DNA of 27,520 nt. It comes from a virus. Below, piece after piece: positions 1-27,520 of the stretch. The notes below the pieces were generated by a model. That model did no database searches, was not told where the DNA came from, and saw only the letters and a list, made by a program, of their open reading frames with translations. The position numbers and the translations under genes are program-made. The stretch lies in the IMG/VR virus record IMGVR_UViG_3300030116_001207, positions 1 through 27,520 of that record; one strand, given 5' to 3'. Numbering within the stretch: position 1 is the stretch's first letter; each line of letters begins with the position of its first letter.

Positions 1-143
1 CTAGCTAGTCCTTTCTTGAATACGCTACAGCTTTCACCTCCTATGAAATCACCTGCCTGTGCTATGCACAAAGTTTTAGCATCTATTTTTTTGAAGAACT
101 TAAAAAGAACCTCAAACATCCAATTAATATCTTTTATCTTGGT
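1..143. repeat. Terminal direct repeat, left copy (circular overlap)
   Basis: Bases 1-143 match bases 27378-27520 except at one position (A at 78, G at 27455). Removing one copy closes the sequence into a circle of about 27,377 bp, and the reading frame of the glycosyltransferase gene then runs through the junction without interruption. This is what an assembler produces from a circular or circularly permuted genome. A true short terminal repeat is possible but less likely, because it would sit in the middle of a gene. Confidence 0.93.
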
Positions 144-506
144 TTTTTTTGTCTGATATCTTCCCTCTGAATTTACTCTGTAATTAAAAGAACTGTAATC
201 ATCATCTAATTCAATAAAATACTTATACCCTAAATCCTTTGCAATATCCCAAAGTGCATTTCTAGCAAATACGGCAACTCTGTAATCATCAATATTGTCT
301 CCAATATCAAACTTCTCTTTTATTTTTTCCTTATTAAAAACTACTACTTTATCACCAAAATTCTTTTTATATAAGTCTAGAGTTTTATCATCGTCTGAAC
401 AAACAATTCTGTAGTCTCCTTTATACCCATACTTCTCCAGGGTTTTTAATGTTTTTAAGTTATCTGCTCTTCCGTAAGATATGATTAGGATAATAAATTC
501 ATTCAT
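1..506 (-). CDS. TET-associated-glycosyltransferase-like protein (TAGT/GREB1-type), N-terminal part
   Basis: This is the first 168 codons of a 282-residue protein that leaves the window at base 1 and continues from about 27377 down to 27035. The ATG at 506 overlaps the parB-like stop by 8 bp (ATGAATGA). Residues 4-40 look like a GT-A nucleotide-sugar-binding start (beta strand, then ISYGRADN, then a strand ending SDDD at 37-40). Residues 96-104 read YFIELDDDY, and the aspartates at 101-103 are the expected metal/nucleotide-sugar DxD site. From memory of the family, this is the TAGT type found in phages and related to part of eukaryotic GREB1; some relatives sit with TET/JBP base oxidases. Predicted role: transfer of a sugar to a modified base in phage DNA. 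Substrate and sugar are unknown. No start-to-stop ORF is visible here because the window edge interrupts it. Confidence 0.8.
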   Translation of the reverse strand, partial: MNEFIILIISYGRADNLKTLKTLEKYGYKGDYRIVCSDDDKTLDLYKKNFGDKVVVFNKEKIKEKFDIGDNIDDYRVAVFARNALWDIAKDLGYKYFIELDDDYSSFNYRVNSEGRYQTKKTKIKDINWMFEVLFKFFKKIDAKTLCIAQAGDFIGGESCSVFKKGLA

Positions 507-1218
507 AATCTTCTTCGTATTGTTTGTAAACAGATTCCTGCAACTCAACGTAGCCGTTCCTTATTGCTTTCTGAAAATCTATTATTACCAAAGCATTTTT
601 CTCAAATAAATCTTGCTGCTCTTTGCTGCAATGGGAATAGTAATCTGCAATCTTATCGAAATAAAAAACAATATGTCTTGCACTAGCTATCTTCAAAAAT
701 TCTTTCTCTCCATCACTCAAATTACTTTCCTCTATTTCCTGAACTAACTTTTTGTATTTGCTATCATCGTACAGCATTTCGATTTCCGGCTGTATCTCTC
801 TAGCTTCATATAATGGGGCATTGATTTTTTTACTGTATACATCATCTTTTTCAATACCTAGAACATCCGGTGTGTTTACTCCCCAATCATTCAACTCCTC
901 AACCTCCCATTCATTGGCAAGCATATCCCAATCCCAATCGCCAAAGCTTACGTTATCTTTAATTACAAATTCCTTGCTCTTTATCTCATCCCATGAAGCA
1001 ATATAAACCGGCACTTCTTCCAACCCTGCAAATTTAGCTGCCTTGTACCTCTGATTGCCTCCTAGAATTACTTTGTCTGGATTTACGACAATAGGCCTAG
1101 CCTCTAGCATTTCCGGAAAATTTTTAATGCTTTCCACCAACTCACCGAACTTCTTATGCGATATTGTTCTAGGGTTATTCGGGTTCTCCGTTATCTCTGT
1201 TATTTTCAATAAATTCAT
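499..1218 (-). CDS. ParB/Srx-like N-terminal domain protein
   Basis: A 239-aa protein. Residues about 3-100 form a ParB/sulfiredoxin-like domain: an opening ITEITENPNNPR, then PIVVNPDKVILGGNQRYKAA, where GGNQR corresponds to the GxxR nucleotide/DNA-contact motif of the fold. Next comes the acidic WDWDMLANEW stretch that often follows this domain in phages. Residues 120-239 are charged, helical and unassigned. Phage ParB-like proteins often sit just upstream of terminase genes and act as nucleases, CTP/ATP-binding DNA clamps or accessory factors for DNA modification; chromosome partitioning is unlikely because no parA is present. It overlaps the 81-aa gene upstream by 44 bp and the glycosyltransferase downstream by 8 bp, so the three are likely co-expressed. 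Family assignment is firm; function is inferred. Confidence 0.82.
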   Translation of the reverse strand: MNLLKITEITENPNNPRTISHKKFGELVESIKNFPEMLEARPIVVNPDKVILGGNQRYKAAKFAGLEEVPVYIASWDEIKSKEFVIKDNVSFGDWDWDMLANEWEVEELNDWGVNTPDVLGIEKDDVYSKKINAPLYEAREIQPEIEMLYDDSKYKKLVQEIEESNLSDGEKEFLKIASARHIVFYFDKIADYYSHCSKEQQDLFEKNALVIIDFQKAIRNGYVELQESVYKQYEEDYE

Positions 1219-25286: not shown

Positions 25287-26468
25287 TCATCCCAAATGAT
25301 AGCTTCCGTAATTTGGATTTGTTTGATTAAACGTAATTGCATATCTACTTGCATCAATGAAATGATTAAACGCATCAACAGGCGTATTCAAAGCTTTTTG
25401 GTTTCTATCCTCTTTGTATTTATAATTCCTCAATTCTTTTATTCCATTCACACTTCTTGCTGTTATCATTAAAGGTTTTGAACGCATGAAATCAATCCCT
25501 GCTCTTATGCTGTCCGGCCCTTTTCTGCATGGATGAACATTGAACCCTTGCGAAGCAATCACCGCTATTGATTTTGGTTCTGCATTGTCTGCAATAATAG
25601 AATCTCCTTTATCTATTTCTGCACTTCTTAATATGTTACAGATATCCGTATTCAGCAATCCACTCGAATAACAAACCTCATCTAAACAATATCCATGTCC
25701 ATCTGTAAAGACCTTTACAATAGCTGTCGGGTCATTCGTGTACCCAAAATCCAATCCCACAGCCAAAAGCCTCCATCCTTCCGGCACTTGTTCAACCTCT
25801 TTCCAATGTGTAAAGATTGTTGTTCTACTTGTTCCCCTTTCTCCTAATCCAAATACCTTCCAATAATTCTCGTCAGCTTCCTTCAATCTTTCAATCTCCT
25901 TAATCGTCTGCTCTCCTAAATATGGATTATCCTTATATGTTGTCTGGAAGAAATCCACATCATCCCTTGTTAGAACCTTATCATATATCCAATGAAATTC
26001 ATCGCTAGGGTTATAATCCAAAATAATTCTGTCCTGTGTTCTCAATATCAACTGCCTCCAATCTTCTAAATTCAATTGATTAGCTTCATTAATAAAAAGT
26101 ATGTTCCTTTTTTTACCTCTTACCTTTTCTGCTTGGTCTACGCTTATAAACTCAACCAGATTTCCAAACAGCTTGTAAGTTCCTTCGACCTTATTATGTA
26201 GTGCAGGATTATACCAATTCTCTTGTTCTAGGATATGGAAGAAATCTCGCATCGCACTACTCCTCAAACTAGGATAAGTTTTTCTGCATATTGTTATTAC
26301 TTGCTTAGCATTTTTATTCTTAAAACAATACTCAATCAGCACCGAAAGAATTGAATACGTCTTGCCGGATCTTGTGCCTCCCTGATGCACTTGGATTCTT
26401 GCCTTGCTGCTTTTTACTTGGTAGTATGTTTTAGGGTTCTTCAATCTCTTCATTATTAAAAATCCCAT
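25287..26468 (-). CDS. terL: Terminase large subunit (TerL)
   Basis: A 393-aa protein of the PBSX-type terminase family. Walker A GGTRSGKT (30-37), a Walker B-like strand with catalytic Glu (NILFINEANQL) and the coupling region (ILDYNPSDEFHW) form the ATPase. The RNase H-like nuclease has Asp in GLDFGYTNDPTA, Asp in SIIADNAEPKS and Asp in PVDAFNHFIDASRYA. It packages DNA into the prohead and cuts it. A start at ATG 26453 (MKRLKNPKTYYQ) is at least as likely as 26468, as it reduces the overlap with the 48-aa gene from 38 to 23 bp. Confidence 0.96.
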   Translation of the reverse strand: MGFLIMKRLKNPKTYYQVKSSKARIQVHQGGTRSGKTYSILSVLIEYCFKNKNAKQVITICRKTYPSLRSSAMRDFFHILEQENWYNPALHNKVEGTYKLFGNLVEFISVDQAEKVRGKKRNILFINEANQLNLEDWRQLILRTQDRIILDYNPSDEFHWIYDKVLTRDDVDFFQTTYKDNPYLGEQTIKEIERLKEADENYWKVFGLGERGTSRTTIFTHWKEVEQVPEGWRLLAVGLDFGYTNDPTAIVKVFTDGHGYCLDEVCYSSGLLNTDICNILRSAEIDKGDSIIADNAEPKSIAVIASQGFNVHPCRKGPDSIRAGIDFMRSKPLMITARSVNGIKELRNYKYKEDRNQKALNTPVDAFNHFIDASRYAITFNQTNPNYGSYHLG

Positions 26469-26577: not shown

Positions 26578-26704
26578 TTCTCACTCTGCTTGCTAAAATC
26601 TTAAAACTTACAAATGCAACTGCTCCTAAAAAAAGCATGTTTATCAAATTAGGGTGTGAATGCTCTCCACATATTCCTAACGCATGGTATAAAAATTCAT
26701 TCAT
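26567..26704 (-). CDS. Small membrane protein, 45 aa
   Basis: ATG at 26704 to TAA at 26567. The product begins MNEFLYHALGICGEHSHPNL, then has a membrane helix (INMLFLGAVAFVSFKIL) and a basic end. The HALG-CGEHSHPN pattern is familiar from short proteins of Bacteroidota phages. It overlaps the TerS stop by 8 bp. A role in lysis or membrane is guessed from the helix. Confidence 0.7.
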   Translation of the reverse strand: MNEFLYHALGICGEHSHPNLINMLFLGAVAFVSFKILASRVRSGK

Positions 26705-27038
26705 CATTATCATCAAACCAGCTTGGCTTTTTATTTGTTTGTGTAATACTTATATCTTGGCTTTCAATATAACCTCTCTCCTTGCCTTTTGTTTTTAATA
26801 AGAAGATTGTTGCTGCTGTATTTCCATTTTCAATCTGCTTATACAATTGGCTTTCTGCAAAGTCTAAAGTTATATTCTTTACATCATCAACTTGCTTCTT
26901 AAAATCTTCATCATTGTTATACCACTCATAGTACGTTGTTCTTCCTACTCCTGCGGTTTTACAGGCAGTCGTTACAACTCCCAAAGATTTTTCAAGTGCT
27001 TGTATTAATACCTTTTTACTGTGTTCGGTTTTGTTCAT
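26697..27038 (-). CDS. terS: Terminase small subunit (TerS)
   Basis: A 113-aa protein with a helix-turn-helix at about 12-45 (LEKSLGVVTTACKTAGVGRT, then TYYEWYNNDEDFKK) and an oligomerisation helix pair (LDFAESQLYKQIENGNTAAT). This is typical of TerS, which recognises the pac/cos site and loads TerL. It overlaps the glycosyltransferase stop by an ATGA. Confidence 0.9.
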   Translation of the reverse strand: MNKTEHSKKVLIQALEKSLGVVTTACKTAGVGRTTYYEWYNNDEDFKKQVDDVKNITLDFAESQLYKQIENGNTAATIFLLKTKGKERGYIESQDISITQTNKKPSWFDDNDE

Positions 27039-27520
27039 TTCTTATATTTTTCATCTAGGATTTTAGGCACGGATTTATTCCAATTAATCTTGTGGTGCAA
27101 TCTCATATTCTTAGCTCCCATCAATCCAACTTTTACGCTACTAGGATTATACATTACAGAGTAAAAAGATTTAACGTATGTGCCTTCGTTTTTATATACG
27201 TCTGTAAATCCACCTTCATTTGTTTGTGTTAGTTCTTGGGTTAATGACAACTCACAAACGGTAAAAAAAAGATCACCCTTGTTTCCTAAATTAACATAGG
27301 TCGTTACATCCTCATTAATTCTTCCTAAAAAATTAAAAGGGTTGTCTGTTTTACATATAAAAAAATTCATGGCCTTCCTAGCTAGTCCTTTCTTGAATAC
27401 GCTACAGCTTTCACCTCCTATGAAATCACCTGCCTGTGCTATGCACAAAGTTTTGGCATCTATTTTTTTGAAGAACTTAAAAAGAACCTCAAACATCCAA
27501 TTAATATCTTTTATCTTGGT
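27035..27520 (-). CDS. TET-associated-glycosyltransferase-like protein (TAGT/GREB1-type), C-terminal part
   Basis: Continuation of the gene at 1-506; in the closed circle only 27035-27377 is new sequence, and 27378-27520 duplicates residues encoded at 1-143. The ATG at 27496 corresponds to internal residue 130 and is not the real start. Conserved stretches here are QAGDFIGGESCSVFKK, RKAMNFFICKTDNPFNFLGR, INEDVTTYVNLGNKGDLFFT and SSVKVGLMGAKNMRLHHKIN, which together identify the family as I remember it. The full protein is 282 aa. The gene lies between the ParB-like gene and TerS, so it may act on DNA before packaging. Confidence 0.8.
   Translation of the reverse strand, partial: TKIKDINWMFEVLFKFFKKIDAKTLCIAQAGDFIGGESCSVFKKGLARKAMNFFICKTDNPFNFLGRINEDVTTYVNLGNKGDLFFTVCELSLTQELTQTNEGGFTDVYKNEGTYVKSFYSVMYNPSSVKVGLMGAKNMRLHHKINWNKSVPKILDEKYKK
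27378..27520. repeat. Terminal direct repeat, right copy (circular overlap)
   Basis: Matches bases 1-143 except G at 27455 against A at 78. The difference is a synonymous third-codon change (GCC versus GCT, alanine) in the glycosyltransferase gene, which fits strain variation in the sampled population more than an error. Confidence 0.93.

Follow-up and report, generated by a model that had tools for sequence, protein, structure and literature searches.

Judged by gene order, the TAGT-family glycosyltransferase of this virus has as its constant partner the ParB-like gene immediately upstream, and we consider it probable that the ParB-TAGT pair is a DNA-tethered, two-component glycosyltransferase whose substrate is the DNA of the phage itself. 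The original prediction for the stretch analysed here (27,520 nucleotides, hereafter the window) was of a possible two-gene modification system in which a TAGT lacking a TET/JBP oxidase is coupled to a C5-cytosine methyltransferase. One part of that proposal stands, in that a TAGT without TET/JBP does belong to a two-gene unit; the second gene of the unit is, however, ParB-like and not the methyltransferase.

TAGT proteins are already known, as are solitary TAGTs, which were singled out in 2026 as possible DNA glycosyltransferases of a class lacking an explanation and occur, without alpha-GT and beta-GT, in 288 of 753 phage genomes; the passages of that source on them give neither a function nor a partner (PMC13216743). 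A ParB-domain adaptor would supply this class with a definite partner, and hence make it testable. The pair was not described in the papers retrieved by a literature search combining ParB, glycosyltransferase and phage, and the same is true of the exchange of ParB_N for a clamp-like peptide and of the slot common with TET; the search was of papers other than two central ones on phage TET systems (Iyer 2013 and Burke 2021), which may mention a ParB-TAGT link.

The TAGT gene and its ParB-like neighbour

Positions 27378-27520 repeat positions 1-143 directly, with a single mismatch over the 143 bp, and the contig is therefore circular or circularly permuted, with a length of ~27,377 bp (~27.4 kb); the TAGT gene, split by the junction, therefore continues at 27377..27035. 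Joining 506..1 to this second segment gives a protein of 282 aa with no internal stop, which matches Pfam PF20691 over residues 5-225 (E=1.5e-33, 117 bits; curated cut-off 27.5) and PHROG 842 (E=8e-64). The TAGT-like gene originally placed at 1-506 is thus real and a full-length PF20691 member, although those positions hold only its N-terminal 168 codons. The catalytic Asp motif (DDD, Table 1) is invariant in 30 of 30 aligned relatives. A structure model of the TAGT from the nearest syntenic relative (L003; 74% identical to the window TAGT) returned Foldseek matches to the GT-A fold that are generic, such that the acceptor is not identifiable from them, and a sequence search of the PDB with TAGT found no relative. 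On its sequence, the window TAGT is a PF20691 family member, with predicted transfer of sugar to DNA. So generic a fold might serve a non-DNA substrate, e.g. a host surface glycan or virion protein, and the nearest solved structures are indeed small-molecule and protein glycosyltransferases; nevertheless, TAGT is constantly linked to ParB_N or a clamp-like peptide and to genes for replication or packaging, which argues against such a target, no linkage to surface-polysaccharide genes was noted in the loci examined, and we regard this explanation as very improbable.

Table 1. Positions of the features discussed, in window coordinates
Feature	Position	Strand	Basis or remark
TAGT-family glycosyltransferase, N-terminal part	1..506	-	ATG at 506; runs over contig junction; PF20691 on joined protein
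TAGT-family glycosyltransferase, C-terminal part	27035..27377	-	Frame continuous across 143-bp repeat
Asp-Asp-Asp, residues 101-103, DxD-type metal/nucleotide-sugar site of GT-A glycosyltransferases	198..206	-	Alignment of relatives
ParB-like partner, 239 aa	499..1218	-	PF02195, E=7.5e-9; directly upstream of TAGT
ParB_N domain of partner, residues 3-90, with GxxR nucleotide-binding motif (GGNQR)	949..1212	-	Pfam ParB_N
C-terminal domain of partner ("ParBC"), residues ~126-239	502..843	-	Strictly TAGT-linked part; stand-alone copies precede TAGT elsewhere
C5-cytosine methyltransferase-like gene, 215 aa	6007..6654	-	PF00145, E=3.4e-9 over residues 38-124; PHROG 757, E=5e-21
TerS-like small terminase gene	26697..27038	-	Overlaps TAGT stop by 4 bp; ORF list; part of conserved order
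Terminase large subunit	25287..26468	-	Terminase_3, E=3.7e-22

The partner gene overlaps the start of TAGT by 8 bp (499-506). Its PF02195 match passes the cut-off, G54 and R57 of ParB_N are invariant, and the top Foldseek matches of its model are the ParB-CTP structures 7bnr and 6sdk, all of these coming through the ParB_N half only; the ParBC half gave no consistent match, and no family, in Pfam. ParB proteins are CTP-dependent DNA clamps, and the partner, which profile, motif and model place in the ParB/Srx superfamily, may by virtue of its fold likewise bind CTP and clamp DNA.

This arrangement recurs in all 39 related viral loci, in which ParB lies directly upstream of TAGT, with a gene overlap of 8, 11, 14 or 17 bp in 37 of them and the order ParB-TAGT-TerS-TerL in most. 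Annotated phages with the pair include those of E. coli, Haloarcula (HHTV-2), Lactobacillus (jlb1, c5), Nocardia (NTR1) and Porphyromonas, and hence span the viruses of bacteria and archaea; the large Vibrio phage pv27 has the ParB C-domain alone before TAGT, and in Lactobacillus phage Ld17 this position is without an annotated ParB. Many TAGT records are fragments, so that a gene missing from any single one is weak evidence. In bacterial genomes, 28 of 32 loci encode ParBC (23 as a two-domain ParB, 5 as the C-domain alone), automatic gene calling having yielded no ParBC in the other four, and in a tree of TAGT proteins the ParBC-linked members form one group (99/97). A TAGT gene is present in 990 of 5426 complete E. 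coli genomes (18%), which provides tractable hosts; should the target prove to be DNA, a DNA modification commonly encoded by prophages will have gone unnoticed.

Possible sources of an acceptor hydroxyl

The C5-methyltransferase gene of the original prediction is supported by its PF00145 and PHROG 757 matches, though short and divergent. Its proposed pairing with TAGT fares less well. In L003, whose ParB is 92% identical to that of the window, the same slot is occupied by a Dam N6-adenine methyltransferase (PF05869, E=6e-19) while ParB-TAGT is retained, and only 4 of 40 TAGT records contain any PF00145 match (3 of these above the family cut-off). The methyltransferase was rejected as the TAGT partner on these two observations, and we judge it, from gene content, to be an independent accessory gene.

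Profile searches of the window record found no TET/JBP (PF12851) and no member of the thymidylate-synthase/hydroxymethylase family (PF00303), and Pfam scans of 30 window proteins found no 2OG-Fe(II) oxygenase; the few HxD/E...H strings present, in a metallophosphoesterase, an M15 peptidase, tail-region ORFs and the like, have no family support as an oxidase. With searches and scans alike empty, the earlier observation that no recognisable TET/JBP, hydroxymethylase or other base oxidase is encoded is upheld. Across the window and 72 other records, Tet_JBP was found in 0 of 40 and 0 of 10 TAGT records and in 0 of 23 ParBC-TAGT phage records, and no TET was found in the surveyed Actinomycetota genomes or in 50 records of a second TAGT group (see below). 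The silence of PF12851 in the window carries weight because this profile does detect phage TETs: the same search route recovered three Coopervirus genomes at E~4e-8, whilst six ParB-TAGT phages searched alongside gave no match at E<=1, and hmmscan matched gp26 of Nonlabens phage P12024L at E=6e-27. A host-supplied oxidase, one of the original suggestions, is disfavoured, and host-supplied TET was rejected, since a Tet_JBP search of 10 whole genomes of pair-carrying bacteria returned nothing over the cut-off (best E=0.03, in E. coli).

These results bear directly on the route in which 5mC made by the C5-methyltransferase is oxidised to 5hmC by an unrecognised enzyme of phage or host and the 5hmC is then glycosylated by TAGT. 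Both end enzymes are encoded in the window genome, and glycosylated cytosines arising via methyltransferase, TET and glycosyltransferases have been described (cited in PMC12730594). Furthermore, neighbouring genes of P12024L (gp26-28; L324 2122-4384) encode TET/JBP, TAGT and an N6/N4 methyltransferase, by gene content a genuine TET-associated TAGT cassette. P12024L resembles the window in its PF20691 glycosyltransferase, but differs in the presence of Tet_JBP (6e-27) and of an N6/N4 methyltransferase, and no ParB is annotated in the 6.6 kb examined; moreover its TAGT stands a very long way from the ParBC group in the tree, on a branch (length 4.08) too long for it to be placed. Given that distance, the replacement of the methyltransferase by Dam, its scarcity among TAGT records, and the empty oxygenase and TET searches of window proteins and host genomes, we find the 5mC-5hmC route highly doubtful.

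An unrelated host or phage activity, i.e. a new oxidase or a modified nucleotide pool, might instead install a hydroxyl before TAGT acts. Characterised TAGT-family enzymes do use glucosyl-hmC or oxidised bases (PMC13216743). The T6 beta-glucosyl-HMC-alpha-glucosyltransferase shares PF20691, the GT-A fold and the conserved Asp motif with the window TAGT, and acts on a DNA-bound sugar (PMC13216743), adding a second glucose to glucosyl-hmC; unlike the window, which has none, T6 possesses a hydroxymethylase pathway. PF00303 is present in 2 of 10 annotated TAGT phages, the large Vibrio phages pv27 and Kuja, given which some TAGT members could use a hydroxymethylated base; it is, however, over the cut-off in 0 of 23 ParBC-TAGT phage records of 49-144 kb. 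The pair also occurs in phages of hosts as unrelated as E. coli, Lactobacillus, Haloarcula and Nocardia with no evident conserved third modification gene, and on this evidence we consider a separately installed hydroxyl unlikely.

Because no TET/JBP, hydroxymethylase or C5-methyltransferase is constant, TAGT probably uses either a canonical base or one readied by a widely available host activity. The most economical choice of acceptor, given the lack of any conserved third gene, is a canonical base, although we favour this only tentatively. To our knowledge, no GT-A enzyme has been established to glycosylate a canonical DNA base directly, and we know of no acceptor hydroxyl outside 5hmC and 5hmU. 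Glycosylation in the absence of prior oxidation would, if true, be new chemistry, and would constitute a one-enzyme route needing no oxidase or hydroxymethylase.

Exchange of enzymes and of DNA-holding modules

The position after ParB is occupied by other enzymes in other phages. In the Coopervirus genomes of Nigel, Stinger and Zemanar (L310, L311, L312, positions 1-1759), the ParB gene gp1 overlaps gp2, a TET/JBP by Pfam (E=4e-6), and terminase follows; gp2 of Cooper is named among TET/JBP proteins (PMC12730594). Gene order and the overlapping ParB gene are as in ParB-TAGT phages, and the ParB N-half is homologous (54.5% identity to Nocardia NTR1 ParB over 143 aa), whereas the enzyme is Tet_JBP (with ADDT in addition in Zemanar) and the C-domain of ParB differs. 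Gp2 of Nigel is annotated as a queuine tRNA-ribosyltransferase, yet matches Tet_JBP. ParB overlaps a C5-methyltransferase in Moraxella Mcat8, a ParB_N-methyltransferase fusion before TerS in Bacteroides BS-TP3, and, in Leptospira LE3 (L318 2938-4559), a protein upstream of terminase with weak GNAT acetyltransferase matches that is possibly another ParB-coupled modifier; the ParB neighbour in Streptococcus Javan420 is an ABC-ATPase-like protein. ParB_N-DNA methyltransferase fusions and pairs (PHROG 498, PADLOC PDLC03229) contain a closely similar ParB_N, but with a methyltransferase in the place of TAGT, and residues 10-144 of the E. coli ParB match a type II methyltransferase family (E=2e-38). 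Although this comparison covers about a dozen phages, from which no frequency is derivable, their predicted gene products indicate that the slot after ParB is rich in, and not exclusive to, DNA-modifying enzymes.

The terminase-proximal location admits a role in packaging, whereby ParB marks pac or cos and TAGT glycosylates the site, or terminase itself, to control cutting. In most small phages ParB-TAGT immediately precedes terminase; in Lactobacillus phage c5 it adjoins the annotated cos site, and in the window TAGT and TerS overlap. However, base modifiers such as TET/JBP occupy the same slot in other phages, and most stand-alone ParBC-TAGT cassettes are found in replication modules, between polymerase and DnaN and away from terminase; we accordingly think a packaging role quite unlikely.

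These stand-alone cassettes were retrieved with a stand-alone ParBC query, which yielded 80 viral loci containing 84 ParBC copies, 71 of which are without ParB_N and immediately precede a TAGT, often adjoining polymerase, DnaN, primase or helicase. Within the fetched flanks, a DNA polymerase is encoded in 57 of the 80 loci and a DnaN-like clamp in 47, the DnaN assignment in L063 being supported by Pfam. The bacterial beta-clamp motif is QLxLF, and the stand-alone ParBC proteins carry a resembling peptide near the N-terminus: LF occurs in 57 of 72 distinct N-termini (7.2 expected from shuffling; 84 of 520 control ORFs) and Q-x(0-2)-LF in 28 of 72 (0.8 expected), whereas the linkers of ParB_N-fused copies contain LF in 0 of 25 cases. 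The motif is short, and several of the stand-alone proteins, that of Vibrio pv27 among them, lack it. By this resemblance the LF/QxxLF peptide may bind the beta clamp, a proposal that concerns the stand-alone proteins and not the window ParB.

A second TAGT group is associated with a different small adaptor (EW.GMPEF...), which is joined to ParB_N in 53 loci, stands alone in 29 and is fused to TAGT in 20; when alone it often has an LF-like peptide. In the adaptors of L191-L195 this peptide is located near the C-terminus (DLFGLEDES), not the N-terminus.

Under the mechanism that we favour, the ParB-like protein would act as both DNA tether and adaptor: ParB_N, a fold that binds CTP and clamps DNA in studied ParBs, would hold DNA, and ParBC would recruit or activate TAGT, presumably through physical contact, for the glycosylation of DNA bases from a nucleotide-sugar donor. 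In the larger phages, ParBC without ParB_N would bind the beta sliding clamp through its LF/QxxLF peptide, so that the enzyme rides the replisome. ParB_N and the clamp peptide would both tether the enzyme to DNA, because ParBs are themselves DNA clamps, and the resulting modular logic is of ParB_N or clamp peptide, adaptor and enzyme. The benefit to the phage may be protection from host nucleases. A precedent is the T4 alpha-glucosyltransferase, which co-purifies with the gp45 sliding clamp (PMC13216743) and so belongs to a DNA glycosyltransferase system with the same clamp-tethering logic as the clamp-peptide ParBC; unlike ParB-TAGT it has a GT-B fold, needs 5hmC, and binds the clamp itself with no adaptor. 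The more ambitious combination, in which TAGT loaded by ParB or beta clamp glycosylates an unmodified base directly and ParB_N is also a general, exchangeable loader for TET/JBP, methyltransferases and TAGT, is in our estimation possible, if short of probable.

In E. coli K-12 MG1655, ynaK of the Rac prophage (L052 9378-9641) corresponds to the N-terminal third of the partner ParB (98% identity over 86 residues). No TAGT gene follows ynaK, which makes K-12 a natural null for the pair; blastp detected no similarity between K-12 YdaY and TAGT, and our literature search on YnaK and YdaY function returned nothing relevant. By gene content, K-12 is a strain that has lost TAGT, keeping only the ParB fragment YnaK.

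Thirty-five of the 80 ParBC loci encode TAGT two or three times over, and one has five copies (multi-copy loci include L060, L064, L066, L083 and L089), suggesting stepwise addition of several sugars. Genes beside TAGT cassettes include those for a UDP-galactopyranose mutase (L107 6225-7319), a cytidylyltransferase-like protein (L093 6249-6968), a radical SAM protein (L120 5353-6339) and a recurrent ~280-aa SAM methyltransferase (L197 4162-5001); the mutase, cytidylyltransferase-like and methyltransferase genes, accessory to some cassettes, suggest that the sugars transferred may be varied.
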